Of a stretch of 51,270 nt of DNA, positions 14,041 to 49,474 are shown one piece after another. The DNA lies in NCBI GenBank assembly GCA_947170435.1, contig CAMVTO010000016.1:1-51270 (forward strand), in the 5' to 3' direction. Position numbers and translations under genes: made by a program. This DNA is from an uncultured Clostridia bacterium (GTDB taxonomy: Bacteria; Bacillota; Clostridia; Oscillospirales; Oscillospiraceae). Position 1 is the stretch's first letter, and every line of letters begins with the position of its first letter. Under the pieces are notes generated by a model that ran no database searches, was not told the DNA's origin, and saw only the letters and a program-made list of their open reading frames with translations.

Positions 14041-15384
14041 TTATTCACCGCTATGCGGTTTCATCGTCAGTTCCGGTGCCAGCTGCGGTGCCGGATCATC
14101 CGGCACCTTCTCCATGCCCGACGGCTTAAGCTCAAAATCCTCCGCCTTCACCTGCGGTTCACGGCCTACGTTAACCTTCTCGACGACCTTCTTAAAATCA
14201 TCCTCCGGCAGCAGCGCCTTGACCGAGCACATCGCCTGCGTAAAGCACTCTTTGTCGTACTCGCGGCTCTTGGGTGCGCAGTCGGTGGTAATATACGTCC
14301 CCAGCGCGCTGACCAGTCCGTTCTTCTCTTCCTTACTCGGCTCCGTATCCTCGTTCACAAAGCGATCCAGCGCGTTGAGCATCTTGTGGAAGCACGCCGT
14401 CTTGCCGCTTGCCATCTTCTTGAGGCTGTCGCGGGTGTTGGCCAGAACCGCGTCGCGGCGGCTGAGATCAGCGTCCAGCGCCGTGACGGCCTCGCTCGTC
14501 TCCTTGATCGCGGTGCCGCGCGCCGCTGCCAGCAGGTTGCCGGGGTGTCCCTTCATGTACGACTTGAACGCCCGGGAACCGCTCAGTTCCATCGCGCGCG
14601 CGTCCGCCTTGGCCTCGTCAAACTCCGGGTTATCCTTCTGCTCATATGCCGCCAGCATGTACGCCGCAGCACTATAGACGTCACCGGCGTTGGCGAGCTT
14701 ACCCGCCTTCTCCTCGGGCTCGACGCGTTTTTGCTTGACGTAGTCCTCATAGCCATTCTTGCCGGGTTGCTTTTTCTCCTGTTCCTTCATCTGCTCAGGA
14801 TGGATGCTGTAATTCCCGGTCTCCAGTTTGTTCGCCAGCTCCTTATACAGCTTTGGCGGCATGATGGTTTTGAGAACCTTCATCTTCATTTCCAGCAGCT
14901 GCTCATAGCGGATGCGCTCATCGTCAACGATCTCAGCGTCTTTCGTGTCCTTGGCAGTCTCGGCATGGGCGCGCTGCCACTCCGCGCGGCGCTCCCGCTC
15001 CTTACCCGCCGCCGCGATCATACGCGCGGGTTCCTCCACGATCGCACGTTCGAGCGCTTTCTTCACCCTCTGCTGAGAAGGCGGATTCTTTCTGATCTCC
15101 TGATACAGCTCACCCATCGGGCTGTCCGGTGCCTCATACATGCCAAACTTAAGCAGCAGCTCCGCGGGACTCGGCTCATCCCCGACCTTTTGGAAAAAGC
15201 GGTTCAAAATGCCGTTCTTGACAATAAACTCGTGTACCGCGCGGTATGCGTTGCGCATCTCCGCGTCTGCCAGTTGCTGCGGCTTTGCCACATAGCTCTG
15301 GTACATGTAATACATGAGGATTTTCTTCCACTGCTGCTCTTCTCTGCGTTTTTTCTCTCTTTCCCAGTCATCCGTAACGATCAT
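14041..15384 (-). CDS. Unknown soluble protein (447 aa), last gene of the T4SS block
   Basis: I do not recognise a named family. The protein is charged, helix-rich and has no signal peptide or membrane segment. ATG 15384 has a strong GGAGGT site; the longer frame from 15429 is not supported. Residues about 330-425 (LKKMASGK to KVNVGRE) align by eye with a segment of the 512-residue protein at 41876-43414: both have a helical stretch, then YI, a charged turn with RE-Y, a Phe/Met helix, and VN..RE. This suggests a shared helical module in proteins from the two ends of the block. It could be a secreted substrate, a chaperone or a cytoplasmic accessory; none is shown. Confidence 0.75.
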   Translation of the reverse strand: MIVTDDWEREKKRREEQQWKKILMYYMYQSYVAKPQQLADAEMRNAYRAVHEFIVKNGILNRFFQKVGDEPSPAELLLKFGMYEAPDSPMGELYQEIRKNPPSQQRVKKALERAIVEEPARMIAAAGKERERRAEWQRAHAETAKDTKDAEIVDDERIRYEQLLEMKMKVLKTIMPPKLYKELANKLETGNYSIHPEQMKEQEKKQPGKNGYEDYVKQKRVEPEEKAGKLANAGDVYSAAAYMLAAYEQKDNPEFDEAKADARAMELSGSRAFKSYMKGHPGNLLAAARGTAIKETSEAVTALDADLSRRDAVLANTRDSLKKMASGKTACFHKMLNALDRFVNEDTEPSKEEKNGLVSALGTYITTDCAPKSREYDKECFTQAMCSVKALLPEDDFKKVVEKVNVGREPQVKAEDFELKPSGMEKVPDDPAPQLAPELTMKPHSGE

Positions 15385-15499
15385 GTAATACCTCCTTCGC
15401 CAACAGGTCACAGGGTTTGCCGCCATCAAGGAACTGCATCACGACTCGCGGCGGATTCCGTCTCATCCTCCGCGCCAAGCTGAATCAGATCAAGCTGAA

Positions 15500-15802
15500 T
15501 CAGATAATCTTGAGCATACCGGCAAAGCCGGTGATTTCAAAAACCTCCATGACCGGCTTGGTCACGTTCTTGATGACCAGCGATCCGCCCTTGCGGCGCA
15601 TGGCAAGATGGGCGCGCTTGAGCGCACGAAGGCCTGCGCTGGAGACATACTCCAGCTCCCCCATGTCGAGGATCAGCGTTTCAAAACGCTCACCCGCCGC
15701 GACCATGTGCTCCTCCGCGTCGCCGGCGGTGGTGGTATCAAGACGGCCGATCAGCTTCAGTTCACCCTCGGTGTCACGATTGATGAGTTTCATGTTCAGC
15801 AT
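15500..15802 (-). CDS. STAS-domain protein (anti-sigma factor antagonist-like)
   Basis: This 100-residue single-domain STAS protein resembles RsbV/SpoIIAA. The phosphorylation-loop motif YVSSAGLRAL near residue 58 keeps the target Ser. It begins MLNMKLINRD, preceded by GGAGG eight bases upstream, while an upstream extension is Arg/Lys-rich and overlaps the neighbour. Such proteins are switched by Ser phosphorylation by a partner kinase and bind anti-sigma factors or other signalling proteins. No partner kinase or PP2C phosphatase lies in the window. Its place between two unknown genes of a secretion operon is unusual and suggests a regulatory switch for the system. Confidence 0.88.
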   Translation of the reverse strand: MLNMKLINRDTEGELKLIGRLDTTTAGDAEEHMVAAGERFETLILDMGELEYVSSAGLRALKRAHLAMRRKGGSLVIKNVTKPVMEVFEITGFAGMLKII

Positions 15803-15845
15803 ATTCGTTTCCTCCAGCTTTCTCTTATTGCGTTGACGGTTTGCC

Positions 15846-17936
15846 TCAGAATCCGACGCCCTGATCCACGCCCTTTTCCGCGGTCTTTTCCGCGGTCTTT
15901 TGCTTCTCTTTCTCCATCTCAGGCTTCGGGCCATCCGGCTCCGCTTTTTTCTGCGTGTACGGCGAGTCTGCGGCGAAGAGCTTTTCGCCCCGGAGCGCCT
16001 CCTCCAGTTCCGCGCCTTTGAGATTCTCCAGCTGCGCGGCGTTGGGAAGGTGCAGGTTCACCGTTTCGTCGAGCGCTTTGTCGCCCCCGGCTCCAATCGC
16101 CCGCACGGTTTCCGGCGGCCCGATATGCAGCGTGTCCAGCCTGCTCATTTTCTGGAAGGCCTGAATGGATTTATCATGAGCCTCCTGGAACTTTTGCAGC
16201 AGCTCAGCCTTATTCTTATCGTGTTTGTCCGCATTTAAGTACTTGTTGCCCGCTGCGCTTTCCTCTGCTTGGGTCATCGCCCATTCCATGGTCAGCTTGT
16301 CCTTGGCATCCACATATTTGGGATACGCGTCTTTATTCTTTTTCCAGTCAATATCGTTTTGGCTTGTAAACGTAAGGGTCTCATAGTTTACACGGTCCCG
16401 GGTGAATCCTTTTCGCTGCTCGTCCGTAAGGGTCACCAAGCCCATGCTCTCAGCATGAAGCATAACCTGCGCTTTTTCGTTTTTGCGGGAGATGTCCAGG
16501 ATCCGTCCGAAACCCTTGGCGGTCTGCAGATCGGCGGGGGTCACCAGCTTCCTCGGCTGCTGGTCTTCCAGCACCGGCTCGCCCACATCCTTGTTGCATT
16601 CCTCGATCAGCGTGCTCTTATCCTCAAGGGCAAGCACCGCTTTTTTCAGCTCGGGATCGCGTTCGAGCAGCGCGGCGGACTCGCTGACCAGCGCAGCGGT
16701 GGTCAGGTTTCTCGGATCGCTGATCGGCTTGCCCTCAAACTTGTGCATCAGGAAGTTCATGCCGCTTGCAATGATACCCGCCAGTTTTTCGGGTTTGCCT
16801 TCCTCCCGATACTCTTTGACCGCTTCAAACACCTTCGCGCGCGAGGGCTGGTATACGCTGCCGAGCACCTTGCCCATATTATCGCGTGGATGATCTGGAT
16901 AGTCGATCATGCTTTCGGTGCACATCATCGTCGACCGGATCGCGTTCTGCTCCGGCGTAAAACAGTGCGCCTCAGATGACAACAGGTTATTTTTTGTGCT
17001 CCTTTCGCCCGGTTCCGACATATCAAAATCGCCGATGACGGACGGATCGCACGAATACATCACAGACAGCGCGGCAAATTCCGCGTCGCTGATCTCGGTT
17101 CCGTGCAGATTTTCCCCCTTGGGCAGCTCGTAGCTTTCCAGCTTTGAAAACTGCTCCTCTGTAAAGTACTTGCCTTTGCCGACCAGTGATTCGCGGCGCT
17201 CCGGCTTCGGGCCGCAGTAGGATTGGTACAGGCTGCGGTACTGGTCAAGCACGTATACCGGCTTCTCGCTCGTCATGTTCTTGAGCTGCTGTCCGCTCTT
17301 TTCCAGCTCCGCTTTCAACTTGGCCTGTTTGCTTTCTTCCTCCCGGCGGGCAACGTCAGCGTCAAAAGTCTTCTTCTCTTCTTCCAGCACTTTCGGCGTG
17401 CGCTTGTCGAGCTTCTCTTGAAAACTTTTTTCCTTGCGCGTCCACTCATCCAGTTTAGCCGGATACTGCTCGATATCAGTTTTTTCTTTGCGATAGGCAT
17501 AGCCGAACGTGATCGCGTTGGCGAACCGCTGCCAGCCGTTCAGCGGCTTCGGCTGCTCCGGCTTCGGGATGGGGAGCTCCGTCAGCGGCACGCTGTACCT
17601 GATATCAGAATTGCCAGACAGCGACAGCTGCACCGGATTCTTTTCTCCGGCCGGGAACGCCAAGATTTTCCCCTGCGCGAGCTTGTCAAGGAATGCGCCG
17701 GACTCCAGCATCTTGTCGTCCTCAAAGGGGTTCTTCAGCTCTCCCTGCTCCGTCAGCTCATAGAACATGAGATTGCCATCTACACCGCGCCCGTCTTTTG
17801 ACCTTTTGGTGTCAAATCCCAGATTGGGAAACAGCTGCGTATCCAGTCTGTGCCGCAGTTCTCCTTGCTGGTACTCCGGGATCTCATTCTTCGGTTTCTG
17901 GAACGGTGTGACGAAACGTCCTTTTATGGTTGCCAT
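15846..17936 (-). CDS. Unknown large soluble protein (696 aa) with C-terminal DQGVGF
   Basis: No family is recognised. The protein is charged and mainly helical, with no signal peptide; residues about 150-215 are a Lys/Glu-rich probable coiled coil. A segment near residues 390-425 (NFLMHKFEG, then SESAALLERDPELKKA) weakly resembles SEETDRVMNDPDFKYI in the 267-residue protein at 41038-41811. The extreme C terminus, VDQGVGF, resembles the end of the 512-residue protein (SDDGIGFN). A shared C-terminal tail is what a T4SS translocation signal would look like, but this is inference. The ribosome site GGGAGG precedes the ATG. The stop of the upstream gene lies four bases before it. Confidence 0.78.
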   Translation of the reverse strand: MATIKGRFVTPFQKPKNEIPEYQQGELRHRLDTQLFPNLGFDTKRSKDGRGVDGNLMFYELTEQGELKNPFEDDKMLESGAFLDKLAQGKILAFPAGEKNPVQLSLSGNSDIRYSVPLTELPIPKPEQPKPLNGWQRFANAITFGYAYRKEKTDIEQYPAKLDEWTRKEKSFQEKLDKRTPKVLEEEKKTFDADVARREEESKQAKLKAELEKSGQQLKNMTSEKPVYVLDQYRSLYQSYCGPKPERRESLVGKGKYFTEEQFSKLESYELPKGENLHGTEISDAEFAALSVMYSCDPSVIGDFDMSEPGERSTKNNLLSSEAHCFTPEQNAIRSTMMCTESMIDYPDHPRDNMGKVLGSVYQPSRAKVFEAVKEYREEGKPEKLAGIIASGMNFLMHKFEGKPISDPRNLTTAALVSESAALLERDPELKKAVLALEDKSTLIEECNKDVGEPVLEDQQPRKLVTPADLQTAKGFGRILDISRKNEKAQVMLHAESMGLVTLTDEQRKGFTRDRVNYETLTFTSQNDIDWKKNKDAYPKYVDAKDKLTMEWAMTQAEESAAGNKYLNADKHDKNKAELLQKFQEAHDKSIQAFQKMSRLDTLHIGPPETVRAIGAGGDKALDETVNLHLPNAAQLENLKGAELEEALRGEKLFAADSPYTQKKAEPDGPKPEMEKEKQKTAEKTAEKGVDQGVGF

Positions 17937-17939: not shown

Positions 17940-18593
17940 TTATTCCTCCCGCTCATCATTTTGCGGCTGTGCGTCCTCTTCCGCCGGCTCGTCCGGCGGC
18001 TGCGCTGCCTTCTGAGGCTTTTGCTTTGCCGCTTTTTTGGTTTCCTTCCGGGTCTTTTTCTCCGCTTTCTTCTCTGCCTTTTGGCGCTTCTTTTCTTCCT
18101 TCGCCGCCTTGCGGGACTGTTTGTCCTCCTCGGACGGTTTCAGCTCGGTCGCCGCCACAGTGTCCGGCAGGCCGCTCTCAAACGCCCTGATCGCGCGGCG
18201 CAGCGAGATCCAGCCCGTGAGTCCGCGGCCCGTCCACGCCGTCAGCGTGGGCGTACCGTCTTCCCAGGTAAACACCAGCACCGCCGGGCGGGTCAGGACA
18301 TAACGGATGAGGCAGGCGATCGCCTCCGGCTGCTCGTTCAGGGCAAGACCGCGGCCAACGTTCTGCATGGACTTTTTCGCCGCCTCCATCAATCTCGCCT
18401 TGCTGTCCTTCGTCCCATAGCGCCGAATCCGGCGGGAGACGCCGAGCAAAAGCACCGCGTCCGCGCCGTCGCCGATGCCGATGGGCGTGCGCAGGATCGT
18501 GCCGGCCGGGAGGGCAATCAGGCGCCCGTCCTCGCCAAGCACGACGCGTCCCATCAGCACGCGCTTGATTTCCGCTCTTTTCAGGTCCTTCAC
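17940..18593 (-). CDS. Unknown 217-aa protein with a very basic Lys/Ala tail
   Basis: The first 150 residues form a compact domain (LPAGTILRTPIGIGDGADAV, then a helix and VLVFTWEDG) that I cannot assign. Residues about 150-200 are a Lys/Ala/Glu-rich basic tail with repeated KKAEKK-like units, ending in an acidic Pro/Glu stretch. No signal peptide or membrane segment is present. It starts with GTG inside the stop of the upstream gene (GTGA, four-base overlap), so it is translationally coupled to the membrane-anchored protein at 18590-19444. A role as a cytoplasmic partner of that protein is inferred. Confidence 0.78.
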   Translation of the reverse strand: MKDLKRAEIKRVLMGRVVLGEDGRLIALPAGTILRTPIGIGDGADAVLLLGVSRRIRRYGTKDSKARLMEAAKKSMQNVGRGLALNEQPEAIACLIRYVLTRPAVLVFTWEDGTPTLTAWTGRGLTGWISLRRAIRAFESGLPDTVAATELKPSEEDKQSRKAAKEEKKRQKAEKKAEKKTRKETKKAAKQKPQKAAQPPDEPAEEDAQPQNDEREE

Positions 18594-19444
18594 GGCTGTG
18601 CCTCGCTCTCTGCCGCTGTGGCGGTTTCTGCTGCTGCGATTTCCTCTGTTTCCTCTTCTTCGTCTTCTTCCTCTGTCTCCAGCGTCTCCACACGGCTGTC
18701 GGTCAGCATCATCTCGCCGCCTGCCACCTGAATGTCGAACACAAAGGATATCCCGTCGCGGACACTGTAGACCGTTACCTCAGCCGTGCCGTTAACGCGC
18801 GTCTCCATCTGGATGGTGACGCCCTCGTCTGAAACTTCGATCTCGGATACGTGCGCCACCATGGAATTGCTGCTCTCAGATTCCCATACCATGCCTCTTT
18901 CCGTGTAGCCCTCGGTATCCTCGACAAAGATCGTCAGCCCTTCGTCGCTGCCGCGCACGGTGAAAGCGTGTCCCGTCTCCTCGCCGCCGCGCACAGTGCT
19001 TTGCAGGGTACGCTCGCTGTGGCCGGCAATTACAGCAACCAGCTTGTCGTTCACATTGTTCACATCAATGGTAAGCGTCAGCTCCGCAAACGGATCCTCC
19101 CCGCTCATCAGCGCGAAGGTCGCCAATTCGCGGCCGCCCGCATCGGGTGTGATGGTGATTCCGGTTTCACCGCCCCGCGTGCCGCCAACGTTGATCTTTA
19201 CCGCGCTGCCCTCCGTGGATTTCAGGCTCCACGCGGCACCTGCCACATCCCCGGTCTTGACCGTCAGGGCAATTTTACCGTCGCCCCGCTCCGTCCAGGT
19301 ATACGGGTATGAAACATCCCCGCCGTGAAATGTGGCTCCACCGCGGTCACGCATAATAAGCGTGACCGCGACGGTGATGATGATAATGCCCAAGAGTGCC
19401 GCAAGGGTGATGATCAGTGGTTTTTTGTTGCTTTGCTTTTCCAT
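18590..19444 (-). CDS. Membrane-anchored extracytoplasmic protein (284 aa)
   Basis: A short Lys-containing cytoplasmic start is followed by one transmembrane helix (residues about 9-30), then a beta-rich external part with Thr/Val/Gly strands, and a strongly acidic Glu/Thr tail (residues about 250-270). There is no cleavage site, so it is probably a type II membrane protein. The topology is like VirB8/TcpC-type T4SS subunits, but I see no sequence match to them. It lies three bases after the giant protein at 19448-24502 and overlaps the next gene by four bases. Confidence 0.78.
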   Translation of the reverse strand: MEKQSNKKPLIITLAALLGIIIITVAVTLIMRDRGGATFHGGDVSYPYTWTERGDGKIALTVKTGDVAGAAWSLKSTEGSAVKINVGGTRGGETGITITPDAGGRELATFALMSGEDPFAELTLTIDVNNVNDKLVAVIAGHSERTLQSTVRGGEETGHAFTVRGSDEGLTIFVEDTEGYTERGMVWESESSNSMVAHVSEIEVSDEGVTIQMETRVNGTAEVTVYSVRDGISFVFDIQVAGGEMMLTDSRVETLETEEEDEEEETEEIAAAETATAAESEAQP

Positions 19445-19447: not shown

Positions 19448-22400
19448 TTAGCCTCCCAGGCCGATACTCGGGTTCAAGACTGACCCGCCGCCTTCCATCT
19501 GGGCTTCCGGGTTCAGTCGGCCACTCGGGACCTGCGACCTCAAGTCGCCTCCCTCTCCAGGTAAAGTCGTGCTATCCGGCTGCGTCGTCGTTTCCGGCGT
19601 GGTCGTCGTCCCCGACTGCGTCGCCGTTTCCGGCGCGGTCGTCGTCCCCGGCGCGGTCGTCGTCCCCGGCGCGGTCGTCGTTTCCGGCGCGGTCGTCGTC
19701 CCCGGCGCGGTCGTCGTTTCCGGCGCGGTCGTCGGGCTCTCGACGCCGATGTTCACGATCGTCTGGATCTTCGACGACTCCACATCGCTCACGGTGATCC
19801 GATATTGCATCGTAACGCCCGTCTCGTTCTCCGGCGCGGTGAACGTGATCTTTTTCTCGTCCACGCGGATGGTCGAACTGGCACTGGCAGGGAATCCGTC
19901 CACAATACGCTCCGAAACCGCCTTCCAGCCGTAGTCGCTGCCGCTCAGTTCCGGTATGATGGTAACCGTTGCGCCCGATTTCGCGAGAATATCCATTGAG
20001 CCGCCGATGGCTTCCTTGGTCGTCATTTCGCCGTCACCCGCGGTACTCGCCGTCAGCTTGAGCGTAACGTTGGCAAAGATGACCGTCTGCGGTGCGCCCT
20101 CGCGGATGACCTCGTTGACCGTGCGATCCGTGGGCTTGCCGCTGTCACCCAGCTGTGCGCTGACCCTCGCGAGCGTCCAGCTCGCCGGATCGACACCGGT
20201 GTTGTGCCAGGGCTCAATCTGGATCCAGCGCAGCTGCTCGATATTGTTGACCAGCATCTGCGCCGTCTTGGTGCTGTTGCTCGGGAAGCTCGCCTCCCCA
20301 TCGGTCAGATAGGGGCGGATGTCGCTGTAGGTCTCCCGGATGAGGTCGCCGTACTGGTCGTAGTACCCCAGCGTCACACTCACCGGAGCGTCCGTACCGC
20401 CGCCCTCGTGCACGCCTTCCGCCGGCTCGCCGGTCTCAAAGGTCAGCGTCAGCGGCGTGACGCTGCCATTCGGCGCCATGCGGTTCGGTGCGCCGGAGAT
20501 GGTCGCCGGCGTGGTAAAGCCATACTCGCCGTGGATCGAATCCACCTCTTTGCTGTCGATGTTGTACTCATAGTCTACCACGCGCGCCGATTCCACCGTG
20601 CCGGTAACGTCGCCCATGCTAACGATGGTAACGCCGATGATCTCCCCAATGCACTTCTGCTCGAAGGTCAGGTCGATCACCTGACCCGGCCGAATCTGCT
20701 GGATCTCCTGGTCGGTCAGATAGATGTACGGCGAACGCAGCTCCGCTTCGGTAATGTCATCCGAACGGTACCACAGCGCCACCGCGAGGTTGTGCTGTTC
20801 GGACAGCGACATCTTGGGCACATCGTTGCCGAGCTGGAGCTGAACATGCTGCTGCCGCCGTGTCCGCGACGAAGTCAAAGCACTCAGAGACAGGCCAGCC
20901 GGATTGGTACTGCCGCTGCCTTCCATTTCCCACGTTCTAATCACGACGCCGCTGCGGATCTGCTGCACCACAGCGTTCACGATGCCGCGTATACCGGTGC
21001 CCGGACCGTCGAAGAGCTTGACGGAGATCAGCGAGTTGAACCTGCTCGCGCTGAGGCCGGTCAGGTAGAAGACCTTCCGACCGTTGTATATCGCCCGGTT
21101 CATGCCGGCGGAGCCGTCCACCTTTCCGTCCTTGTCGACCTTCAGGCTGCCGCTGGAAACCTGAATCGTCTCATCCGAGACATTGTTGTAGTTGATCGTG
21201 ACCACGGGGCCGTAGTTGGCATCGACCTTGGCATCATCGTCCGGGTACACAAAGACGTTGAGCGTGTCGTTCTCCGAGGGCGGCTCACGCGAGATGATCG
21301 ATCTCCACTGCGCTGCCTCGGGGTTCATCTCGAGGAGATTATCGGTGAAATAAATGTTAATGAGCATCGGCTCTGCGTTCATCTTCTCGCCGTACGAGTT
21401 CACCGTCCCGTCATAATGCTGCAGGATCACGCTGTACGCAGGTGAGGTTTCACTGTCGCCGTGGGCAAGCTCGGTCAGTTCCTCGCCCACGCGATAAATC
21501 CGCTGATACTCACCGTTGCTGTTGATGGCAAGAGTACCCGCGCCGTTCACCATAAACAGTGAAACATTTGAGATTCTCCATTCGGTATCCACCGCGCTGG
21601 TCACCGCCAACTCGATCCGGTTAATGGTCTTCACGTCGCTGAGGCTGAAGTAGAAGCGGTCGGTGTGATCCGCGCGGAACATCAGGTTCGGGTCGCTGAT
21701 CGTCTTGCCGCCAATAAGGTCCGAAGCGCCCAGCGTTGTGCGGTTCATGTACGAATACATGCTCTTGGTCACGTCACCGAGCTCCTCAGAACCCTTGGAC
21801 GGGCTGTAGGAGTCATAATAGACGGTTGCCGACAGGTTGCCCACAAACTGATCGCCGCCCTCGGGGTAGCCCTGTGTTGTAATGGCGAGCATAAAGTTGA
21901 CTTCAAAGGTGCTGCCGTCCACCGTATAGGTGCGCGCCAGCTCGGATGCGCCGCGGCCTGCCATACCCATGACCGACTGCATCTGTGCGCTGTCGCGGTA
22001 GTCAATGCTGATCCAGCCAACCTCGCTGATCGTCCACACCGGAACCAGCGCCGAGTTGCTCTCGCGCTTGACCTGAATGGAAGCGATCTTCAGCTTATCG
22101 AACATATCGCTGTCCTCAGAGAGATCCTCGGGGATAATCTGCACGGCGGTCACATCGCCGTAGTCCTGGTTGGTGGAAATGTTGAACGTCTGCGCCGCGC
22201 CGGCGATAAAGCCGTCCGAGGGGAGCTGCTGGTTCGCCAGCACAAAGGCGCTGCTGCCGCTCTTGAAGATAAGGCGGAAGTAGAAGAGGTTGTTGGAGCC
22301 GCAGTCACCATTCTCCAGTGTCGAGTCCTCGTTGCCGGCAACATTGACCGTTACCGAATAGAGGAACCTGTCTTTGCCGAAGCCCAGATCCTGCGATGCT

Positions 22401-24502
22401 TCCTGGAAGGTCATGGAATAGCGGATCTTCGACCAGTCCACGCGCTTGACGGTGTTCACGTCCGCGCTCCCGCCTTCGCCCCTGATGTTGTCCGTGCGGG
22501 TCGGTCCCACGTTGGTAAACGTGTCCTGTCCCTGCTGGATCAACACGGGGTTGATGCAGTCGTCCAAAAAGCGGTAAACCGGATCGCCCACGACTTCGCG
22601 CTCATAGCGCAGGGCGCTTGTCACGCCATCCACATTGAACGACTTCCAGACCACGTTGCGCTTGTAGAACGTTCTAACCGTCGAAATTTGCAGATCCTTC
22701 ATCTGCCAGTCGTCGTGGGTTCCTCCCTCAGCCATCCACACCTGGATGTCCGTGATCGCCTTCACCTGTTGGAGCGGCACAAAGAACCGCAGCGTCTGTC
22801 CGGTGGCGACGCCCTCGTAATAGCCAATATCCTGCGGGGTGCTGCCGTACCACCAGCCGTTGAAGTCGCGGGACAGCTCACGCACGTTGAGCGTGCTGGA
22901 CACCTTGGCGTTGCCGTTGAGGTCGATCCAGCTGATCGACATCAGGATGTCGTCCTTTGTGCCCGCGCCGGTGAGACTATCCGTCGTCAGTTCCAGAAGG
23001 TAGCGTTCCGTCCGGTCGCGCGGCGCGAGGAGCTTGCCGCTCTCATACTCGGTGATGCTGAGGCTGTTCGCTCCCATCTGGAGCGTATTGCCGTTCGTCG
23101 TCTGTACCGGCCGATAATAAACCGGGTCAGCCGGGTTGCCGGCGGCTGTTTTGTAGCTGTATTCAATCGAACCGGTGCTGTCGTCGACACGCGCTGTGAC
23201 CTGAGCGGCGTCATCCCCCGTCTTCGTCATATCATAGATCGCCATGGTAACGATGCTGGCAGGATCGCTTTCGCTCACCTCAATGCGGTTGCCGCGAAGC
23301 TGTCCCAGCGTGCCGGTAGGCTTTCCGGGCAACGTTGTCAGGCTGAGGGCGTTGCACGCCTCTTTCGCGCCGAGTGTCACAGTAACGCCTTTGCTGGGAG
23401 AAAGCGAGACAAAGTCAGGCAGGAAGATACCGAGTGCCATCCCCTCGCCCTGCTGTGCGAAGCCGCCGAGCGGCTTCTTCAGTTCCTCCGCCGAAAGCAG
23501 CGTCTTGGCGTACTCCACAGCGTTCAGCACGGCCGGCACGCTCACCGCGTGCTCAATGCCATAGCAGTCAATGTAGTACACAGTCACCGCCATGGTCTCC
23601 GCGATGCCCATGCTCGTCAGTGTGCTGTTTTCCGCTGACATCGCGCTCAGCGCTTCCAGGCCGGCACCGTATGTATCGGCAAAGTCAAAGCGCAGCACAA
23701 TGGTCTTTTTTGAGTTGTCCTGCAGCTTATGATTCTCATAGGTGCTGTCAAAGCCGGTCGTCTTGAGCACGATATCCGTTGCCTGCTGGCTTGCGCTTTG
23801 CTGCTTCTGGTTTCCGGCCACCTGAGAGCTGATCAGCTTGTCATTGTTCCAGCTGAGATTTCTCATCGAGCTCTTCTTTCCCTCGGCGATCAGTTTGCCG
23901 CTGAAATTGATGTAGCAATCGCTTGAGCCGATGTTGCTGCGATACAGGCCGTCCAACTGATCCACCTTGAAAATGCGCATGGCACGGCAGTCCCAGTTGC
24001 CATGATCGGCAGCAAAGAACTGCACACGCTTGATCTGTGTGATCTCGTCCTGCGTCGTGAACAGATACTGATCGGTGGAATAGGACTGGAACAGGCTCCG
24101 TCCCTTCTCAAGATCGGAAGCGGAATAGCCGTATGTATTCTGAATTTCCGTGTCGCGTGTCTTCTGCACGGCGGGATTCTTCACCAGAGTGCTGCCATCC
24201 TTCGTCAGCATGCTGTACGTCTTGCTCCACCCGTCTTTCGCGGGGAACAGGAACTTGCTGATCGTTTTATCTCCGCTCGCTGCCGTGGTGTAGGTGATGA
24301 TGAAGAAATCAATCTTATCCTCAAACCCCTGCTGCGTCCGCGCGCCGGTGGTGACCTCGAACAGATACGTCGATTCCGCCGCGTACGCGGCACCGGTCAT
24401 GGCCCAAACGCACAGCAGCAGCACCGGGATGAACATAAGATGTCCGCCCCACCGCCTGACGGTGCGGCCGAGCCTTTCCACTTGTTTTAAGAATGCCTGC
24501 AT
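19448..24502 (-). CDS. Giant exported protein (about 1684 aa) with Thr/Pro-rich repeat tail
   Basis: A signal peptide or N-terminal anchor (hydrophobic core LMFIPVLLLCVWAMTGAAYA) is followed by a very long beta-rich external part. A recurring pattern of an Ile/Val strand, an Asp-Trp turn and a second strand is seen at least five times (for example NWDCRAMRIF, DDWQMKDLQI, TEWRISNVSL, ASWTLARVSA). This suggests repeated PLAT- or galactose-binding-like sandwiches. Residues about 1587-1644 are TTAPET/TTAPGT repeats, a stalk or glycosylation region. No sortase LPxTG plus membrane anchor follows. ATG 24502 with GGGAGTG is preferred over a GTG six codons upstream. Function is unknown; a surface structure partnering the T4SS is inferred. 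Confidence 0.85.
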   Translation of the reverse strand: MQAFLKQVERLGRTVRRWGGHLMFIPVLLLCVWAMTGAAYAAESTYLFEVTTGARTQQGFEDKIDFFIITYTTAASGDKTISKFLFPAKDGWSKTYSMLTKDGSTLVKNPAVQKTRDTEIQNTYGYSASDLEKGRSLFQSYSTDQYLFTTQDEITQIKRVQFFAADHGNWDCRAMRIFKVDQLDGLYRSNIGSSDCYINFSGKLIAEGKKSSMRNLSWNNDKLISSQVAGNQKQQSASQQATDIVLKTTGFDSTYENHKLQDNSKKTIVLRFDFADTYGAGLEALSAMSAENSTLTSMGIAETMAVTVYYIDCYGIEHAVSVPAVLNAVEYAKTLLSAEELKKPLGGFAQQGEGMALGIFLPDFVSLSPSKGVTVTLGAKEACNALSLTTLPGKPTGTLGQLRGNRIEVSESDPASIVTMAIYDMTKTGDDAAQVTARVDDSTGSIEYSYKTAAGNPADPVYYRPVQTTNGNTLQMGANSLSITEYESGKLLAPRDRTERYLLELTTDSLTGAGTKDDILMSISWIDLNGNAKVSSTLNVRELSRDFNGWWYGSTPQDIGYYEGVATGQTLRFFVPLQQVKAITDIQVWMAEGGTHDDWQMKDLQISTVRTFYKRNVVWKSFNVDGVTSALRYEREVVGDPVYRFLDDCINPVLIQQGQDTFTNVGPTRTDNIRGEGGSADVNTVKRVDWSKIRYSMTFQEASQDLGFGKDRFLYSVTVNVAGNEDSTLENGDCGSNNLFYFRLIFKSGSSAFVLANQQLPSDGFIAGAAQTFNISTNQDYGDVTAVQIIPEDLSEDSDMFDKLKIASIQVKRESNSALVPVWTISEVGWISIDYRDSAQMQSVMGMAGRGASELARTYTVDGSTFEVNFMLAITTQGYPEGGDQFVGNLSATVYYDSYSPSKGSEELGDVTKSMYSYMNRTTLGASDLIGGKTISDPNLMFRADHTDRFYFSLSDVKTINRIELAVTSAVDTEWRISNVSLFMVNGAGTLAINSNGEYQRIYRVGEELTELAHGDSETSPAYSVILQHYDGTVNSYGEKMNAEPMLINIYFTDNLLEMNPEAAQWRSIISREPPSENDTLNVFVYPDDDAKVDANYGPVVTINYNNVSDETIQVSSGSLKVDKDGKVDGSAGMNRAIYNGRKVFYLTGLSASRFNSLISVKLFDGPGTGIRGIVNAVVQQIRSGVVIRTWEMEGSGSTNPAGLSLSALTSSRTRRQQHVQLQLGNDVPKMSLSEQHNLAVALWYRSDDITEAELRSPYIYLTDQEIQQIRPGQVIDLTFEQKCIGEIIGVTIVSMGDVTGTVESARVVDYEYNIDSKEVDSIHGEYGFTTPATISGAPNRMAPNGSVTPLTLTFETGEPAEGVHEGGGTDAPVSVTLGYYDQYGDLIRETYSDIRPYLTDGEASFPSNSTKTAQMLVNNIEQLRWIQIEPWHNTGVDPASWTLARVSAQLGDSGKPTDRTVNEVIREGAPQTVIFANVTLKLTASTAGDGEMTTKEAIGGSMDILAKSGATVTIIPELSGSDYGWKAVSERIVDGFPASASSTIRVDEKKITFTAPENETGVTMQYRITVSDVESSKIQTIVNIGVESPTTAPETTTAPGTTTAPETTTAPGTTTAPGTTTAPETATQSGTTTTPETTTQPDSTTLPGEGGDLRSQVPSGRLNPEAQMEGGGSVLNPSIGLGG

Positions 24503-24526
24503 TGTGATCACTCCCAACACATTTGC

Positions 24527-41037: not shown

Positions 41038-41811
41038 TTATCGTACCGGGCCGTCTCCCGTTTTCGTCGGCGCGTCCGCTTCTGCTTTGGTCGGCTCCGC
41101 TTCACGCTGTCTCAGCTGCTCCGCCCGTTTGGGATACTGCTCCATTGCGATGCCGCTGCCCCGCAAGGTATTGATGTTGAGCGTCTCCGGTTTTTCATGC
41201 TCCATGATATACTTGAAATCCGGATCATTCATCACCCGGTCTGTCTCCTCACTGAGCATCGTGCCGTCCAGCTGCCGGTTCACGTCCCGCCGTACGACCT
41301 CCACCATCTTGCCGTCCGGTGCGAGCGCCTTTGCCTTCCAGCTCGACAGTCGGTGCACCGCCACCAGTGCCGCGTAGTCGCGCGGCTGCGCCGTTCGCGC
41401 CCGCGCCTTTGCCTGCACACCGTGGATCACGTCGATTGCCCGACGGTTGGGCTGTTCGCTTTCCGAAAGCTCTCTGTCCCGTGCCTGCAGGTCGCGCACC
41501 AGCGCGTCCACGCTGCCGCTTTGCGCCAGTTGTTCGCCGGTGTCCGCCATCAGCGAGCGGAACGCGGACGTCTTCTGGATGCCCTGCGAGATGTCATGGA
41601 TTGCCCGATAGTTGAGCTCGCCGGTAATGAACCCGACCTCCATGCCCCGCAGCAGCATTCCGTTCGCCGCGACTGCGTTGGCAAGGTGCTGAGACCGCTG
41701 GGCGGCGTCCGCCGTTTCGCGCGCCTGCAACATTTGCTCGTTGATGAACTTCCGGTGTTCCTCGACGCCTTTTTGTTCGACTTTTCTCCGATAATCCGTA
41801 AAATCCGCCAT
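41038..41811 (-). CDS. Unknown soluble protein (257 aa)
   Basis: This is a charged, helical protein without signal peptide or membrane segment, and I do not recognise the family. MADFTDY at 41811 is taken as the start because the alternative at 41841 is TTG; the ribosome site (GGGGGTGA) is rather distant, so the start is not certain. SEETDRVMNDPDFKYI near residue 190 weakly resembles a segment of the 696-residue protein at 15846-17936. The C terminus is Glu/Lys/Pro-rich. It lies 64 bases after the 512-residue protein gene and may share its transcript. Confidence 0.72.
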   Translation of the reverse strand: MADFTDYRRKVEQKGVEEHRKFINEQMLQARETADAAQRSQHLANAVAANGMLLRGMEVGFITGELNYRAIHDISQGIQKTSAFRSLMADTGEQLAQSGSVDALVRDLQARDRELSESEQPNRRAIDVIHGVQAKARARTAQPRDYAALVAVHRLSSWKAKALAPDGKMVEVVRRDVNRQLDGTMLSEETDRVMNDPDFKYIMEHEKPETLNINTLRGSGIAMEQYPKRAEQLRQREAEPTKAEADAPTKTGDGPVR

Positions 41812-43610: not shown

Positions 43611-44387
43611 TTAGTACCCTTCATTCCAGACCGCCCACGAGTAGCCATACAGATAGAAGCCGCGGAACTCCATCTCCGCCTCGGGGACGCCGCGCAGATA
43701 GCGGTACAGATCGCAGTCGATCAGCTCCGGGCGGATGCGCATGAACCCGCCGCCGATCTCAAAGATCTCGCTGATCCCGTATTCATTCAGCGTATCCTGG
43801 AGGCTGTTTACGATCACATTGAAATAGTTTTGCGCCTTCGCGTCGTACTCCCGGTCCTCCCACATTTCGGTAAAAGCTACCTTTCTCGACACCTCGCCGC
43901 CGCGCCGGTCGATCAGCAGCGCAAGCAGCTCCTTCGCCTTTGCGCGCTCAAAATGCACCGCCCTGCCGTCTACCGTGATGGAGAACACGCCGAACGTATG
44001 CACCGAGATATGGGACACGTCCGTTTCCGCGCGGCTGAGCAAAAGCTGGTCGATCTGTGTTGTCAGCACCGCCTGATCAAGCGGCTTGATCAGATAGCTG
44101 AACGGGTGTACGGCATAGGCTTTGAGCGCATCCTGCGCATCCTCCGCCATAAAGATGATGGCGAGCCGCGCATATTTCTCCCGCAGCTTTGCCGCAAAAT
44201 CAATCCCGCTCATCTCCGCCAAGTCAACGGCAAGCAGAACGAGATCCGCGTGATCCATATTGAACCACGCCAGCGCTTCCTGCACATCCAAAAACCCGGC
44301 CACATAGTCGATCGCCGGATGCTCTCTGCATAGGGCAAGCACATGATCCAATGAACTCGCTTCACTGTCAATGCAAAGCACACGCAT
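43611..44387 (-). CDS. Response-regulator-like protein with degenerate receiver and winged-helix DNA-binding domain
   Basis: Residues 1-120 form a CheY-like receiver and residues about 140-235 an OmpR/SARP-type winged helix (TFGVFSITVDGRAVHFER and following), which recalls BTAD-less SARP regulators. The receiver keeps Lys in YLIKPL but has Ala where the phospho-acceptor Asp should be (LVLLAVDL instead of LVLLDxxM). Met replaces the switch Thr/Ser (IIFMAED), and the acidic pair reads DSE. Phosphorylation control is thus doubtful. ATG 44387 gives the normal receiver start MRVLCID and has GAGGTG six bases upstream. No histidine kinase is near. It likely regulates the T4SS block. Confidence 0.88.
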   Translation of the reverse strand: MRVLCIDSEASSLDHVLALCREHPAIDYVAGFLDVQEALAWFNMDHADLVLLAVDLAEMSGIDFAAKLREKYARLAIIFMAEDAQDALKAYAVHPFSYLIKPLDQAVLTTQIDQLLLSRAETDVSHISVHTFGVFSITVDGRAVHFERAKAKELLALLIDRRGGEVSRKVAFTEMWEDREYDAKAQNYFNVIVNSLQDTLNEYGISEIFEIGGGFMRIRPELIDCDLYRYLRGVPEAEMEFRGFYLYGYSWAVWNEGY

Positions 44388-44413
44388 CCTCATCACCTCA
44401 TCCACTACATCTG

Positions 44414-44612: not shown

Positions 44613-45659
44613 TTAGCCTTTTCTGATGCTGTTTTTCAACGACTGGCGCATCATCTTGCCAAAGTCGCCGCCCTCATCGTTGAGTGCGCCGCTGCGGCCG
44701 AACGCCATCGCAGTGAGGAACACCGCGTCGAGGTTTTCCTCCCGCGTCCAGATGCGGTAGAAGCCCTTGACGGCGATCTTCTTCAGCACCTTATGCTTTT
44801 CCTCATTCTCCTCGTGGACGTGGTTGCTGGTGGCCTCCAGAACCGCGATCTCCTCGCCGTCGCGCGAAACACGGAAGCGGGGCCACACCGATCCCTCCTG
44901 CCGCTCGGTTTCTACGTTGATGCCGTTGCGCTTGAGCGTCTTCCAGATCTCCTCGCCGTCCAGATCAAAGGTATAGTGGTTGTCGAGCAGGAAGAAGTTG
45001 TTCTCCGTCTCCTCCTCATGACCCACCAGATGCTGCGTCGTGACGCCGTGCTCGTGGTCGATGAAGTCAAAGTGATATGCCGTGGTCATCGAGAACTTGG
45101 TCATCTTCGCCTCGTAGAGCACCTTGCGGTTCTTATCCTCGATGCGGTGGCCGTACTTCGGCGTACCCATGTCCGTGAGGAAGTAGACCTCACGCTCCTC
45201 ACCCTTGACAGAGGGCGCGCAGGTCATGCCGCCCTTGGCGCGCTGCGTCTCCAGCTCCGCCAGGGCCTCCTTGTTCTTCTTGCCGACAAGGAAGATACCG
45301 GCAATGAACACGACGCCCAGCACCATCAGGTAAACGCCGCCGCCCTTGCCGCCGTGGATGACGGACGGGTTCTGCGGGTCGTAATAGACGGTGACGGTCT
45401 TGCCCACCTTCCAGCCGTCGCTGTAGCTGTCCAGCCGCGAGGTGTAGCGCGAACCCTCCACCACATAGTCCACCATGACGATGTAGCTGGTGTCCTCCGA
45501 GTCGGACCATTCCTCATCCACCTCGATGGAGACGATGGTCGCCTGCGTCTTGACATAGCCCGCGGACTGGAAGAACGTGATGTAGACGCCCGCCGCGAAG
45601 GCGATCAGCGCCATGACCAACAAGAAATACTTGAACTTGGGTCCTCTGACAGAAAACAT
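44613..45659 (-). CDS. Membrane protein with DUF3592-like domain (348 aa)
   Basis: Residues 8-30 and about 108-125 are membrane helices flanking a beta-rich DUF3592-like segment (KTQATIVSIEVDEEW, then VTVYYDPQNPSVIH). The C-terminal 200 residues form a beta-rich cytoplasmic domain with strand pairs like the tubby/LURP-one fold (HRIEDKNRKVLYEAKMTKFS), but that match is weak. It follows the lipoprotein gene by 33 bases with AAGGAG before the ATG, so the two are one unit. The function is unknown. Confidence 0.78.
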   Translation of the reverse strand: MFSVRGPKFKYFLLVMALIAFAAGVYITFFQSAGYVKTQATIVSIEVDEEWSDSEDTSYIVMVDYVVEGSRYTSRLDSYSDGWKVGKTVTVYYDPQNPSVIHGGKGGGVYLMVLGVVFIAGIFLVGKKNKEALAELETQRAKGGMTCAPSVKGEEREVYFLTDMGTPKYGHRIEDKNRKVLYEAKMTKFSMTTAYHFDFIDHEHGVTTQHLVGHEEETENNFFLLDNHYTFDLDGEEIWKTLKRNGINVETERQEGSVWPRFRVSRDGEEIAVLEATSNHVHEENEEKHKVLKKIAVKGFYRIWTREENLDAVFLTAMAFGRSGALNDEGGDFGKMMRQSLKNSIRKG

Positions 45660-45692: not shown

Positions 45693-47744
45693 TCAGTTCA
45701 CGCGGATAAACGCGCTGTCCTCGTCGCGCAGGCCGCGGTCGTCGTGCCAGCACAGCTCGCCGGCGTCGTTCAGATAGAAGTAACCGGTCTCTTCGTAGCT
45801 CTCGTCCGTGGTCCAGCCCTCGCCGTTCTCGTCGTACTCCTTGACCTGCCAGTTGCCGTTCTCATAGGCGAGCCCGTCATCCTCCAGCACGCCGAAAAGC
45901 TCCCACTCGTTCATCACGGCGGCGCTGTCCGGCCAAGTCGCGCTGATGTTCGCCTTGCCGGGCGCGACGCTGGGCTCGATCGTGACCATGCCGCGCCCCG
46001 CAATCTTCTCCGCCCAGACGCCGACGTACGGCGTCAGGCTCTCGTCGGCGCTCTTGGCGCCCGCCTTTTCGGCAAGCGCGTAGTACCAGCTCTGCATCGC
46101 CTCGGCGTAGCTGACGTTGTCGTCCCACATGGCCGCCTGATAGAGCGTTTCCTGACCGCCGGAGGTCACGCGGGCGTAGGCGTCCGGCGCGAAGAAGAAG
46201 TCGATGCGCACGTCCTCGTCCGGGAATTCCAGCACCACATACTCGCCGTCCGGCGCTTCCGTGGCGTCGGTATCGCCGAAGTAGCCGTGCAGGACGAACT
46301 CGGCAAAGCGCGTCGCGTCCACGCCGCCGCCCGCCACGGGGCCGAACTCCGTGGTGCTGACGGTGTAGTTCACGCCGTCCTGCCACGCCGCGCGGGCGAC
46401 GTACATATCCAGCTCGGAGTTGCCGAAGCCCGCGTACTCCAGATCGTTCTGCTCGACGAACTTATCCCTCATCTGCTCCGCCCAATCGCAGAGCATCGTC
46501 CACTGCGCCTGATCGCGCTCCATCTCCTCCGGCGTGGCGCGCGCATAGCGCACGTCCGTGGGATGGGTGTACAGATAATAGTTGCCGTCCGCGTCCTTGG
46601 CGAAGACCTCCACGCCGGACATGTCGTTGCAAAGCAACTCGTGTACCCTTTCCTCGTCGGCCACCACGATGTTGAACAGCCAGCCGGAGCCTTCATAGCT
46701 ATCCGCCTCCATGGACGCGGTCTCGGAAACGGAGAACAGGGTGCCGTCTGCGGCGTCCTGCGGGGTCAGAACGGTGATGAGATCGTTGTACTTGGGCTGG
46801 ATTTCGAGCTTCATTCCGCCGTTTTCATACTCGCCCCAGATCTGTGGGGGATACGTCACGACGATGGGATCGATGGGCGTGCCGCTGTCCATGCTCTCCA
46901 TGTCCTGCCCCTCGCAGAAGTTGAAGTTCAGCGTCAGCTTCTCAAAGCCCTTGAGCTCCTTCGCCTCGCCGTCGAAGCTCAAAAACCCTGCCGCCACCTT
47001 GCCCGGCGCGGCCGCGACGCCGCCGAGGACATAGTCGCAGACCACGCCGTCCAGTTCGGCGCTGACCGGGGACAGACCGACGAAGTGGTCGCTCTTGTTC
47101 TTCAGGTACACATAGACCTCAGGACCGAACCAGTCGTCATAGTCCTGCTCGCCGATTACCAACTCGCACTGGTCGTTCTCCCACAGGAGTCCATCGAAGC
47201 CGGTGATGTCCACCATCGGCACGCTCTCGTCGAGGGTGAGGGTCACCGGCTCCGACTTGTAGTCGTACCAGGTGTCCTCGTCCGGCGCCGTGGTGAAGCA
47301 GAACTCCATCATGCCCGGCTTGCTGATGTCAATGCCGGGGATGCTCGTTCCGTAGTAGCCCAGCGCGTAGCGGACGGTACTGCCGGCGGGCGCGTCCTGC
47401 CCGAAGCTGTTTTCCGCGCCGTAGTACTCCCCGTCCTCCATCATGAATTCAATCAGCAGCACGTCGGTCACGAAGCCGTTGACCGAGCCGTCGGTCACGC
47501 CGAGGTAGACGTCCTTCTCTCCCTTGTTCTCCACGTCCACCCAGAGGATGGGCGCCGGCTCCTCCGAGGTCGGATCGACGTCCAGCCCCGCGGTGGTGAC
47601 GGTCAAGCCGTCCTTGTCAAAGATGACGGCGCCGTTGGTGATATCGTTCTCCGCCGGTGCTTCCGTCTGATTTTTTGTTCCGCAGCCCGTCAGAACGCTC
47701 ATCACCATAAGTACGGACAGCAGCAATGCCAGTTTCTTTTTCAT
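45693..47744 (-). CDS. Large lipoprotein of unknown function (683 aa)
   Basis: The lipobox LTGC places the acylated Cys at residue 21, followed by a short linker. The external part is acidic and beta-rich, with repeated short segments such as DITGFDGLLWENDQCEL and VYVYLKNKSDHFVGLSP, which look like Ig-like or DUF-type surface modules. A C-terminal part (GNWQVKEYDENGEGWTTDES) follows. I see no catalytic motif. The ATG has GGAGG seven bases upstream. It is probably co-transcribed with the DUF3592-like gene. Confidence 0.8.
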   Translation of the reverse strand: MKKKLALLLSVLMVMSVLTGCGTKNQTEAPAENDITNGAVIFDKDGLTVTTAGLDVDPTSEEPAPILWVDVENKGEKDVYLGVTDGSVNGFVTDVLLIEFMMEDGEYYGAENSFGQDAPAGSTVRYALGYYGTSIPGIDISKPGMMEFCFTTAPDEDTWYDYKSEPVTLTLDESVPMVDITGFDGLLWENDQCELVIGEQDYDDWFGPEVYVYLKNKSDHFVGLSPVSAELDGVVCDYVLGGVAAAPGKVAAGFLSFDGEAKELKGFEKLTLNFNFCEGQDMESMDSGTPIDPIVVTYPPQIWGEYENGGMKLEIQPKYNDLITVLTPQDAADGTLFSVSETASMEADSYEGSGWLFNIVVADEERVHELLCNDMSGVEVFAKDADGNYYLYTHPTDVRYARATPEEMERDQAQWTMLCDWAEQMRDKFVEQNDLEYAGFGNSELDMYVARAAWQDGVNYTVSTTEFGPVAGGGVDATRFAEFVLHGYFGDTDATEAPDGEYVVLEFPDEDVRIDFFFAPDAYARVTSGGQETLYQAAMWDDNVSYAEAMQSWYYALAEKAGAKSADESLTPYVGVWAEKIAGRGMVTIEPSVAPGKANISATWPDSAAVMNEWELFGVLEDDGLAYENGNWQVKEYDENGEGWTTDESYEETGYFYLNDAGELCWHDDRGLRDEDSAFIRVN

Positions 47745-47860: not shown

Positions 47861-47939
47861 CGCATGCCGGTCATATTCATCTGCCAAGTGATCTGCTCTT
47901 GCCGGTACGATTATTATGAGCGGCTTTCCGTCGGGATTC

Positions 47940-48932
47940 TCAGGCAAAGAAACGAAGCACCAGCGTATCCTGCGCAAGCTCCCGGAACACATTGAAGCCC
48001 AGATACCGTACCGTCCAAAGAATCAGCCACATGCACACCGCCGTCTCGACAAAGCCGAGCGCAGCGCCGCCCAGCTTATCCACCTGCTTGACAACAGGCA
48101 GCACAAATACAAGGCCCAGCGAATTCTTGATGATGGTGAGCACTGCGAGGAAAGCAACCCAGCCGATCAGGAACACAAGGACACGCACATAGCGCGGCAC
48201 CATAAAGGCGATCACCGCAGCAACTGCGGCCTCCATCGCGGCACGGGCATTCTCAGCAGTCCGAATGGCCTCGCGGACCGCTCCGGCTTCTGTCCCATCG
48301 CCCAACATAGCCTCTGCGCCGGCATTCATTTCCTTTTGAACCGCCGTAATTGCCGCGTCAATGTTCTCGTCCGTCAGCACCGTCTCACCCGCGCTGCCCA
48401 GTGTATCGCCCACCGCGCGAATGTATTCGCGCGCCGCGTCACCGGAAAGCCCGCGCTCCTCAAGAGCCTCGCGTGCCACATCCATCAATCCATCCTCCAC
48501 AGCAGAAACCGCGGAGTCAACATTCTCATCGGTCAGCAGTTCATGATTCACCTGTGCCAGCTTATCGCCCGCGTCACGTGCGGCTTCCTTGGCAATGTCT
48601 GTGTACTGGGCAACATCAATGGCCGCGCGGATCTCATCCGTCATGCCGTACTCCAGCTTTTCAAGAACTGCGTCATAGTCCTCCAGCGACCAGAACGAGA
48701 CATCATGATCCAACGTTGCGTTCGTGATCGCAGGTGTCACGGCCTCTGAAATCGGTCCTGTCAGAACAGCAGCTAGCACAAGGCCGCAGATGGCCGACAC
48801 ACCGATGACCGCAAGCGGCATCAGTGCGGCATACAGTCCCTTGTGCATTCGCACAAATGTACCGCACAGCAGAATCGCAACGACCATAAAATCAAGAATC
48901 AGCGGTGTAAATTGCGTCAAAAGATCATTCAT
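47940..48932 (-). CDS. CvpA-like membrane protein with a long charged insert (330 aa)
   Basis: Two N-terminal membrane helices (residues about 12-30 and 35-58) and two C-terminal ones (about 245-270 and 285-310) with the pattern KLGGAALGFVETAVCMWLI match the CvpA family. Between them lies an insert of about 180 residues, helical and acidic, with two copies of a TDENVDSAV / TDENIDAAI unit. Normal CvpA proteins are about 160-200 residues. It follows pilin copy 2 by 103 bases without a clear terminator, so it is probably in the same unit. Confidence 0.78.
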   Translation of the reverse strand: MNDLLTQFTPLILDFMVVAILLCGTFVRMHKGLYAALMPLAVIGVSAICGLVLAAVLTGPISEAVTPAITNATLDHDVSFWSLEDYDAVLEKLEYGMTDEIRAAIDVAQYTDIAKEAARDAGDKLAQVNHELLTDENVDSAVSAVEDGLMDVAREALEERGLSGDAAREYIRAVGDTLGSAGETVLTDENIDAAITAVQKEMNAGAEAMLGDGTEAGAVREAIRTAENARAAMEAAVAAVIAFMVPRYVRVLVFLIGWVAFLAVLTIIKNSLGLVFVLPVVKQVDKLGGAALGFVETAVCMWLILWTVRYLGFNVFRELAQDTLVLRFFA

Positions 48933-49028
48933 GTTCCCGCCTTCTTTCTCTCAAGACACATGTTCCCGAGACGCTGGGAAAACCGTGCCCTTTGCACGCA
49001 GAGTGGTGAGTACTACCTCAGATAAGCT

Positions 49029-49474
49029 GTCAAAATCAGCCGCTGACTTGGCCGCCGGCGTCCTTGATGTCCTGCTCGGAGATGATCGTGGTGGCCGCGC
49101 CGTTCTTGCCGCTGTTGTTGGAGCCGTTGACCCACCGAATCATCCTCGGCATCATGATGTTCAGCGCGAGGATCAGCACGAAGATCAGCACGAAGCCGAT
49201 GATCGCGTTCTTCAGCGCGCCCTTGGCCTTCTCACGGTCCTGGGGCTCCTCCGCCTTGGCGAACTTCACGCCGAGCAGCACGCAATACAGTGCGCCCACC
49301 GCGCCGACGATTGCCAGCAGCGGCCCGAGGAGCTGGTTGATGAGGTCGACGATCGGGTTTACCACGTCGCCGAAGCCCGCGTCAGCGGCAAACGCGCCGG
49401 TGCAGAGCGTCATCGCGGCGACGCTCGTACCGAGAGCCACACGGCTCATGGTGTTCTTAAGGTTTTTCATGTTT
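49029..49474. repeat. Pilin gene duplication, right copy
   Basis: Partner of 40465-40910; the three mismatches are two missense and one silent change. Confidence 0.95.
49036..49470 (-). CDS. VirB2-like pilin, copy 2
   Basis: This 144-residue protein is identical to copy 1 except for Asn in NNSGK and Gln in SEQD. The signal peptide, two hydrophobic helices and charged loop are as in copy 1. It is the first gene of the block next to the rRNA operon and has a separate promoter, so the two pilins can be made under different control. Confidence 0.9.
   Translation of the reverse strand: MKNLKNTMSRVALGTSVAAMTLCTGAFAADAGFGDVVNPIVDLINQLLGPLLAIVGAVGALYCVLLGVKFAKAEEPQDREKAKGALKNAIIGFVLIFVLILALNIMMPRMIRWVNGSNNSGKNGAATTIISEQDIKDAGGQVSG

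Follow-up and report, generated by a model that had tools for sequence, protein, structure and literature searches.

What does a type IV secretion system (T4SS) move when no DNA-processing gene lies beside it? The question is raised by a contig from an uncultured clostridium of the Oscillospiraceae (GenBank CAMVTO010000016.1, contig C16 of its assembly), in which a block of 19 genes between positions 14041 and 49470 encodes a VirB4/VirD4-type machine. The window that we analyzed is this entire contig of 51,270 bases; it belongs to a 2.81-Mb assembly of 81 contigs that is 88% complete. We argue that the block is probably a dedicated, non-conjugative T4SS with which Gram-positive gut Clostridia would deliver proteins. 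We favor a protein injector over a conjugation element because no DNA-transfer enzyme is linked to the block and because effector-like enzymes adjoin its sister machines. (Genomes are given below as G-numbers, with G000 for the window's own genome, and contigs as C-numbers.)

The minus strand carries all 19 genes, mostly with tight spacing, and 96% of the block is coding, as judged with a codon-usage gene finder that was trained on the larger genes of the block. Together they encode a VirB4-type ATPase, a VirB6-type channel, VirB2-type pilins and VirD4, the components by which we recognize a T4SS. The VirB4 ATPase (24527..28744) matches P-loop_TraG (E = 5e-17) and the VirB4-like structure 4ag5 in PDB (E = 9e-47), and its N-terminus (residues 12–79) has a weak TcpE/VirB3-like match (E = 0.0065). 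The VirB6-like polytopic channel protein (28781..31420) matches NF045848 (E = 9e-43), and the VirD4 coupling protein (32434..34446) matches PF02534 (E = 3e-55) and PF12696 (E = 8e-33). Two VirB2-type pilins, copy A (40472..40906) and copy B (49036..49470), match PF18895 (E = 5e-14 and 8e-14). The original prediction, made from the DNA letters alone, had named these same components in a one-strand block, and the family matches bear it out.

It had also stated that the block lacks relaxase, recombinase, excisionase and replication genes. Pfam found none of these families among the 19 block proteins or the 14 genes of the 14-kb left flank, so the statement holds for both. To look beyond the window, we counted as a carrier any genome with a VirD4 match at E <= 1e-80, with the window's own genome included at each taxonomic level. 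A search of 16 carrier genomes found PF03432 relaxases in 6, and one of 10 genomes found PF03389 in 3; each of these lies on a contig without the block. The remaining 10 of the 16 genomes (64–98% complete) have no match to PF03432 whatever. In the window's own genome, the same search found a relaxase at 118 kb of contig C3, where a distant VirD4 lies 14 kb away (at 132 kb); hence this search can detect a linked relaxase. VirD4 matched 2525 plasmid records and VirB4 matched 41 phage records, all at less than 60% identity.

The motor and channel genes recur as one lineage, often accompanied by genes for the Ig-like membrane protein I322, the giant protein E1690, STAS and regulators of the SpoIIE/RsbW type. 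Carriers are patchy: 6 of 18 genomes in the genus, 8 of 400 in the family, 6 of 394 in the order, and 10 of 291 in the class. Seven of the ten class-level carriers are genomes of 0.8–1.2 Mb with a more distant VirD4 (35–40% identity). The window's own genome has a second block on contig C8, whose VirD4 is 84% identical, and one more VirD4 copy (79% identical) on the 7.8-kb contig C59. When the window is compared with the C8 block, VirD4 is the most conserved of the large core genes, and VirD4 copies across the genus are 67–88% identical. In a tree of 24 VirD4 sequences, which left out G006, G013 and the class-level relatives, 17 family members split, with support of 100/99, from 7 distant sequences, two of which are identical; the exact position of the separating branch is unsure because it is very long. 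The VirD4 and VirB4 trees both place G374 (GTDB family f1) beside G755 (f26), and because of this placement across families, the blocks were probably transferred among lineages. A genome scan with VirB4 gave five named records: three have ruminant titles (goat rumen, red deer, and roe deer abomasum), and two have RUG names, which we take to mean rumen genomes.

To tabulate the content of the blocks, we labeled genes in 30 stretches with phmmer (E <= 1e-4). I322 is present in 17 of these, STAS in 14, E1690 in 13, SpoIIE in 9, and an RsbW-like gene in 7. These counts are rough because many stretches are cut within the block and a few labeled genes lie outside it, namely a second STAS/SpoIIE cluster in G016 and a second T4SS in G681. 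Further STAS genes, beyond the table, are in G226 and on G005:C65. By the same labeling, E1690 was not found in the stretches from G374, G755, G681 and G1012, a pilin was not found in the C8 stretch, and G374 has five VirB6 genes. The regulators that were verified with Pfam are STAS (window), HATPase (G226), SpoIIE (C8 and G016), and an extracytoplasmic function (ECF) sigma factor (G755). The last is one of three small ECF-sigma-like genes that lie immediately upstream of VirD4, in G755, G413 and G374.

Near the machines in the loci examined, we picked by eye 47 candidate effectors and scanned 37 of them with Pfam. Four scored above the cut-off for an enzyme or toxin domain. One, from G374, matches ADPrib_exo_Tox (60.8 bits), and in PDB it matches the ADP-ribosyltransferase 1qs2 (E = 5e-4) and Vip2 (E = 0.007). 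G697 has two: a papain-like protein (C39_2, 30.4 bits; C70, 28.0 bits) and one with an Ntox11 domain (71.3 bits). The fourth, from G010, has a calpain family domain (47.6 bits). Another family resembles kinases, with DRH..N and DND residues that are invariant; the C8 block has three of its genes, the G013 and G010 blocks have members too, and G755 gives a weak match (E = 3e-6). The Pfam matches of this family are under the cut-off; its profile matches FAM20A and FAM20C in PDB at E values from 2.9e-4 (FAM20A) to 0.012. Relatives of these kinases occur in 3 of 8 carriers, as compared to 7 of 392 non-carriers (P = 6e-4, Fisher test uncorrected for kinship); those seven genomes rule the family out as a carrier-exclusive marker. 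No VirB4 or VirD4 of this lineage lies near the matches of the seven non-carrier genomes or near that of G374, one of the three carriers (3.3–40 kb examined).

In a candidate family from G226, G051 and G405, several proteins per genome share N-terminal parts and diverge further on. The C-terminal tails of 30 candidates are hydrophilic and rich in proline, glycine and glutamine relative to 137 controls, and their last 15 residues have an average net charge of +1.5, versus +0.05 in the controls (P = 0.001). The candidates were chosen with their tails in view, and the positive tail is no more than suggestive of a T4SS signal.

G224, which lacks this VirD4, has tandem kinase-like genes about 12 kb from block-like SpoIIE/RsbW genes (contig C11, 13794–16870 and 28946–30564, with an offset of 185001). 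In the G016 block (contig C2, 41616–41933 and 44983–45360, with an offset of 25001), short open reading frames match a 794-amino-acid protein of G005 and the kinase family, as if cargo genes were decaying and turning over there. The G374 block has a CotH kinase protein some 26 kb away (L061:3027–5309), which is probably unrelated to it.

The window's own block has four soluble-looking proteins that might be cargo. A462 (14041..15384), a helical protein that could also be an accessory, has no family above the cut-off and has a homolog in the G016 block (E = 1e-162). B696 (15846..17936), without a family match, is found in 2 of the 18 genus genomes, both of them carriers, and G005 keeps the gene order C217-B696-STAS. 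L538 (41876..43414), again without a family, has a partial homolog in the G005 block (E = 1e-22). K267 (41038..41811), which is helical, is tightly linked to the block: its profile has matches in 2 of 400 genomes of the family; both genomes are carriers, and both matches lie within the block. The predicted fold of K267 is helical as well, with a predicted local distance difference test score (pLDDT) of 48, and is not interpretable.

The block also encodes two giant proteins with apparent Sec-type signal starts (by eye). One (34468..40359) is a lectin with 16 ricin-type (RicinB_lectin_2) stretches (PF14200, E = 6e-103); the other, E1690 (19448..24520), is a candidate tip protein or adhesin with a PLAT-like match slightly under the cut-off (E = 1.8e-4). 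I322 (31439..32407), the neighbor of VirD4, has a C-terminal membrane helix and, as judged with AlphaFold and Foldseek, beta-sandwich (Ig-like) domains. Its best model has a pLDDT of 71.6 (the remaining four, 47–58), and Foldseek matched it to Ig-tandem proteins with E values down to 5e-6, yet TM-scores of about 0.3 or less. Potential regulators are a STAS protein of the anti-anti-sigma type (15500..15802; PF01740, E = 9e-15), which was not in the original prediction, and a response regulator (43611..44405; PF00072, E = 4e-13). The remaining genes encode a DUF3592 protein (44613..45659; PF12158, E = 3e-14), a large protein with a lipoprotein-like start by eye (45693..47744) and a relative on G000:C68, a CvpA-like membrane protein (47940..48932; PF02674, E = 3e-8) whose 65% identical homolog in G016 adjoins the A462 homolog, and two proteins that are conserved in other blocks. 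These are the small protein C217 (17940..18593), with homologs in G016, G010, G347, G697 and G005, and D284 (18590..19444), which has a single N-terminal hydrophobic stretch (by eye) and homologs in C8, G013, G016 and G006. Elsewhere in G000, sensor histidine kinases of PF06580 adjoin the C59 VirD4 (L023:812–3260) and the C8 block (L022:15720–17540), and the former is accompanied by a gene with helix-turn-helix and response-regulator domains.

If the block is a protein injector, its parts could work together as follows. The giant lectins, E1690 and the pilin would contact and bind the target, while partner switching by STAS, SpoIIE and RsbW proteins, along with response regulators, would turn the system on. 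VirD4 would select cargo, perhaps through a C-terminal tail that is hydrophilic and disordered. VirB4, VirB6 and the pilin would then drive the cargo outward through the membrane and possibly into an adjacent cell. A462, B696, L538, and perhaps K267, would be the cargo or cargo chaperones.

Could the block instead move DNA, as a conjugative or mobilizable element whose relaxase and integrase have been lost, or whose relaxase is unrecognized or acts in trans? VirB4, VirB6 and VirD4 belong to the type found in Gram-positive conjugation, the spread is patchy with trees that cross GTDB families, serine recombinases lie beside the blocks of G016 and G755, the latter with a tRNA nearby, and some carriers do have relaxases elsewhere. 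But none of the 16 carriers has a relaxase on the block contig and 10 have no PF03432 at all, plasmids hold no relative of at least 60% identity, VirD4 stays 67–88% identical among the genus copies, and what recurs beside the machine is effector-type domains and regulators instead. We consider a DNA-moving element unlikely. The original prediction had offered protein export and the display of giant lectins as alternatives. Export stands, as what the absence of relaxases from the block contigs and the effector-like sister enzymes suggest. Display is plausible as just one part of the system; that it is the whole, with the pilin, the Ig-like protein, E1690 and the lectins forming a glycan-binding organelle and no protein entering cells, seems quite improbable to us. 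The 16 ricin-type stretches, the Ig-like domains of I322 and the presence of E1690 in many blocks would fit such an organelle. However, the giants would not need a T4SS for their export because of their apparent Sec-type starts, no other large core gene is as well conserved between the window and C8 as VirD4, and candidate cargo with catalytic domains turns up repeatedly.

A protein injector has evidence against it as well, which we gather here. No VirB8 or wall hydrolase (VirB1) was matched by Pfam among the window's block proteins, even at E values up to 0.1. Of the scanned candidates, 33 of 37 have no enzyme or toxin domain above the cut-off; the calpain-like and Ntox11 proteins have no match in PDB; kinase relatives occur in non-carriers; and the G374 kinase match is on a different contig than its block. 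A462, B696, L538 and K267 matched no family in the window scans, and unlike the sister candidates, each of them has a net charge of –1 in its last 15 residues. The labels "soluble" and "signal-less" were given by eye from the sequences. A motif common to A462, L538, K267 and the G005 794-amino-acid protein failed in leave-one-out searches with hidden Markov models (E = 9.5 for A462 and 0.78 for K267; the other two were not listed). Nor was a block-specific C-terminal tail supported by permutation (P = 0.23–0.77 for tail lengths of 4–10, with low power); this set had 46 proteins from 21 families and 16 blocks, that is, the 47 candidates minus two with cut C-termini plus one G005 protein. Linked relaxases could be missed because many block contigs are short (those of G006, C59, G742, G413 and G005 are only 3.7–20 kb) and because a conjugative-type region on G681:C8 has no PF03432 match. 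Finally, the G755 block is flanked by serine recombinases on both sides, with a tRNA-Arg about 2 kb past its last candidate.

If proteins are delivered, to whom? The FAM20-like, calpain and C70-like domains suggest that the targets are eukaryotic. As a variant of the protein injector, the effectors might enter other bacteria in contact-dependent antagonism, as with the killing T4SS of Xanthomonas. The Ntox11 domain, which we take to be a polymorphic-toxin family, leaves room for bacterial targets, and the candidate family with shared N-terminal parts and divergent remainders would fit as well; but the eukaryotic-like domains point the other way, and we regard this variant as rather doubtful. 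In its fullest form, the protein-injector reading would be an undescribed lineage of effector-injecting T4SS in commensal Clostridia, lectin-guided and partner-switched, with FAM20-like kinases, an ADP-ribosyltransferase, and calpain- and papain-like proteases as the cargo that would act within eukaryotes of the gut, for example rumen ciliates or fungi. We put this forward tentatively, as a possibility.

The borders of the block are as originally predicted. On the left is an inverted repeat (13992..14032) with perfect 19-bp arms and a 3-nt loop, which is terminator-like on either strand. On the right, a hairpin fold on the minus strand (49708..49737) resembles a terminator and closes an rRNA operon, of which 5S, tRNA-Glu, tRNA-Lys and a partial 23S are present (49739..51270, minus strand). 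The DNA right of the block cannot be read because the contig ends at 51270 within the 23S rRNA, a point that the original prediction had missed. It had also missed that each pilin gene lies within a copy of a 446-bp direct repeat (40465–40910 and 49029–49474; 99.3% identity). Recombination across these copies could delete about 8.6 kb, including K267, L538, the regulator and CvpA. The best repeat that links the ends of the block is 14 bp, and there is no long flanking repeat. The left flank, whose 14 genes were scanned with Pfam, has metabolic genes and a TRAP transporter. The TRAP genes are bracketed by two related GntR/FCD regulators (9158–9841 and 13247–13930) in opposite orientations and with 73% DNA identity.

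A fixed chromosomal place for the block, as had been proposed, is not supported by comparison. In the carrier G005 (2.5 kb examined) and the non-carrier G014 (16.7 kb examined), different genes come after the TRAP locus. The neighbors of the G000:C8 and G013 blocks differ, as judged from gene lists without a formal alignment. Carriers are patchy, the trees cross families, and serine recombinases adjoin the G016 block as well as the G755 block. A fixed locus beside rRNA is unsupported, as the neighbors vary; rRNA was not searched for in the sister loci. Among 43 fetched stretches, 4 have tRNA genes.

The conjugative-type region of G681:C8 is separate from the block in that genome. It spans 59–79 kb of the stretch 510001–590000 and has a ParA-like gene, VirD4 and VirB4; this VirD4 is about 12 kb from the last candidate gene of the G681 block. 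The seven near-complete genomes of family f31 (G764, G802, G857, G880, G925, G1020 and G1034) are 0.8–1.2 Mb, with VirD4s that are 35–40% identical. Three of the four f31 loci examined (G764, G880 and G1034, not G1020) have an open reading frame of at least 2866 amino acids. With such reduced genomes, these Clostridia may live as symbionts or epibionts.

Whether Gram-positive bacteria have dedicated effector T4SSs is a long-standing question, according to PMC12857230. The block family offers many loci without a linked relaxase in commensal gut bacteria, with candidate cargo nearby that includes testable catalytic domains, and it makes the question directly testable. If the targets are eukaryotic, gut Clostridia would act on protozoa, fungi or host cells by contact.

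We found no account of this block family in the open-access literature. Its VirB4, VirB6-type (MMCAP2_0566, Mbov_0396) and VirD4 families are those of Gram-positive integrative and conjugative elements and conjugative transposons (mating-pair formation types FA and FATA). Unlike those elements, the window has no match to a relaxase, wall hydrolase or integrase, and its VirD4 belongs to a separate group. In Bordetella, partner switching by BtrU, BtrV and BtrW controls a type III secretion system. Genes for a SpoIIE-type phosphatase, STAS and HATPase similarly adjoin the secretion machine in sister blocks, although here the machine is a T4SS, the organisms are Gram-positive, and the window itself has only the STAS gene.

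The T4SS of the Streptococcus suis 89K element is reported to secrete the subtilisin-like protease SspA-1 (PMC4897608, PMC12857230). Both are Gram-positive T4SSs, with protein export reported for 89K and probable for the block. 89K itself moves by conjugation, whereas we found no relaxase linked to the block family and its candidate cargo adjoins the machine. The T4SSs of Patescibacteria, including Saccharibacteria, mostly lack a relaxase and have been inferred to play a non-conjugative role, with PF18895 used as a search model (PMC12102498, PMC12857230). By comparison, the block family is found mostly in genomes of ordinary size, is patchy, and is present in several copies in one genome; the window lacks a recognized VirB1 or VirB8; and the family is accompanied by STAS/SpoIIE/RsbW regulators, giant lectins and effector-like neighbors. 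What the two share is a monoderm VirB4/VirB6/VirD4 machine with VirB2-like pilins of PF18895.

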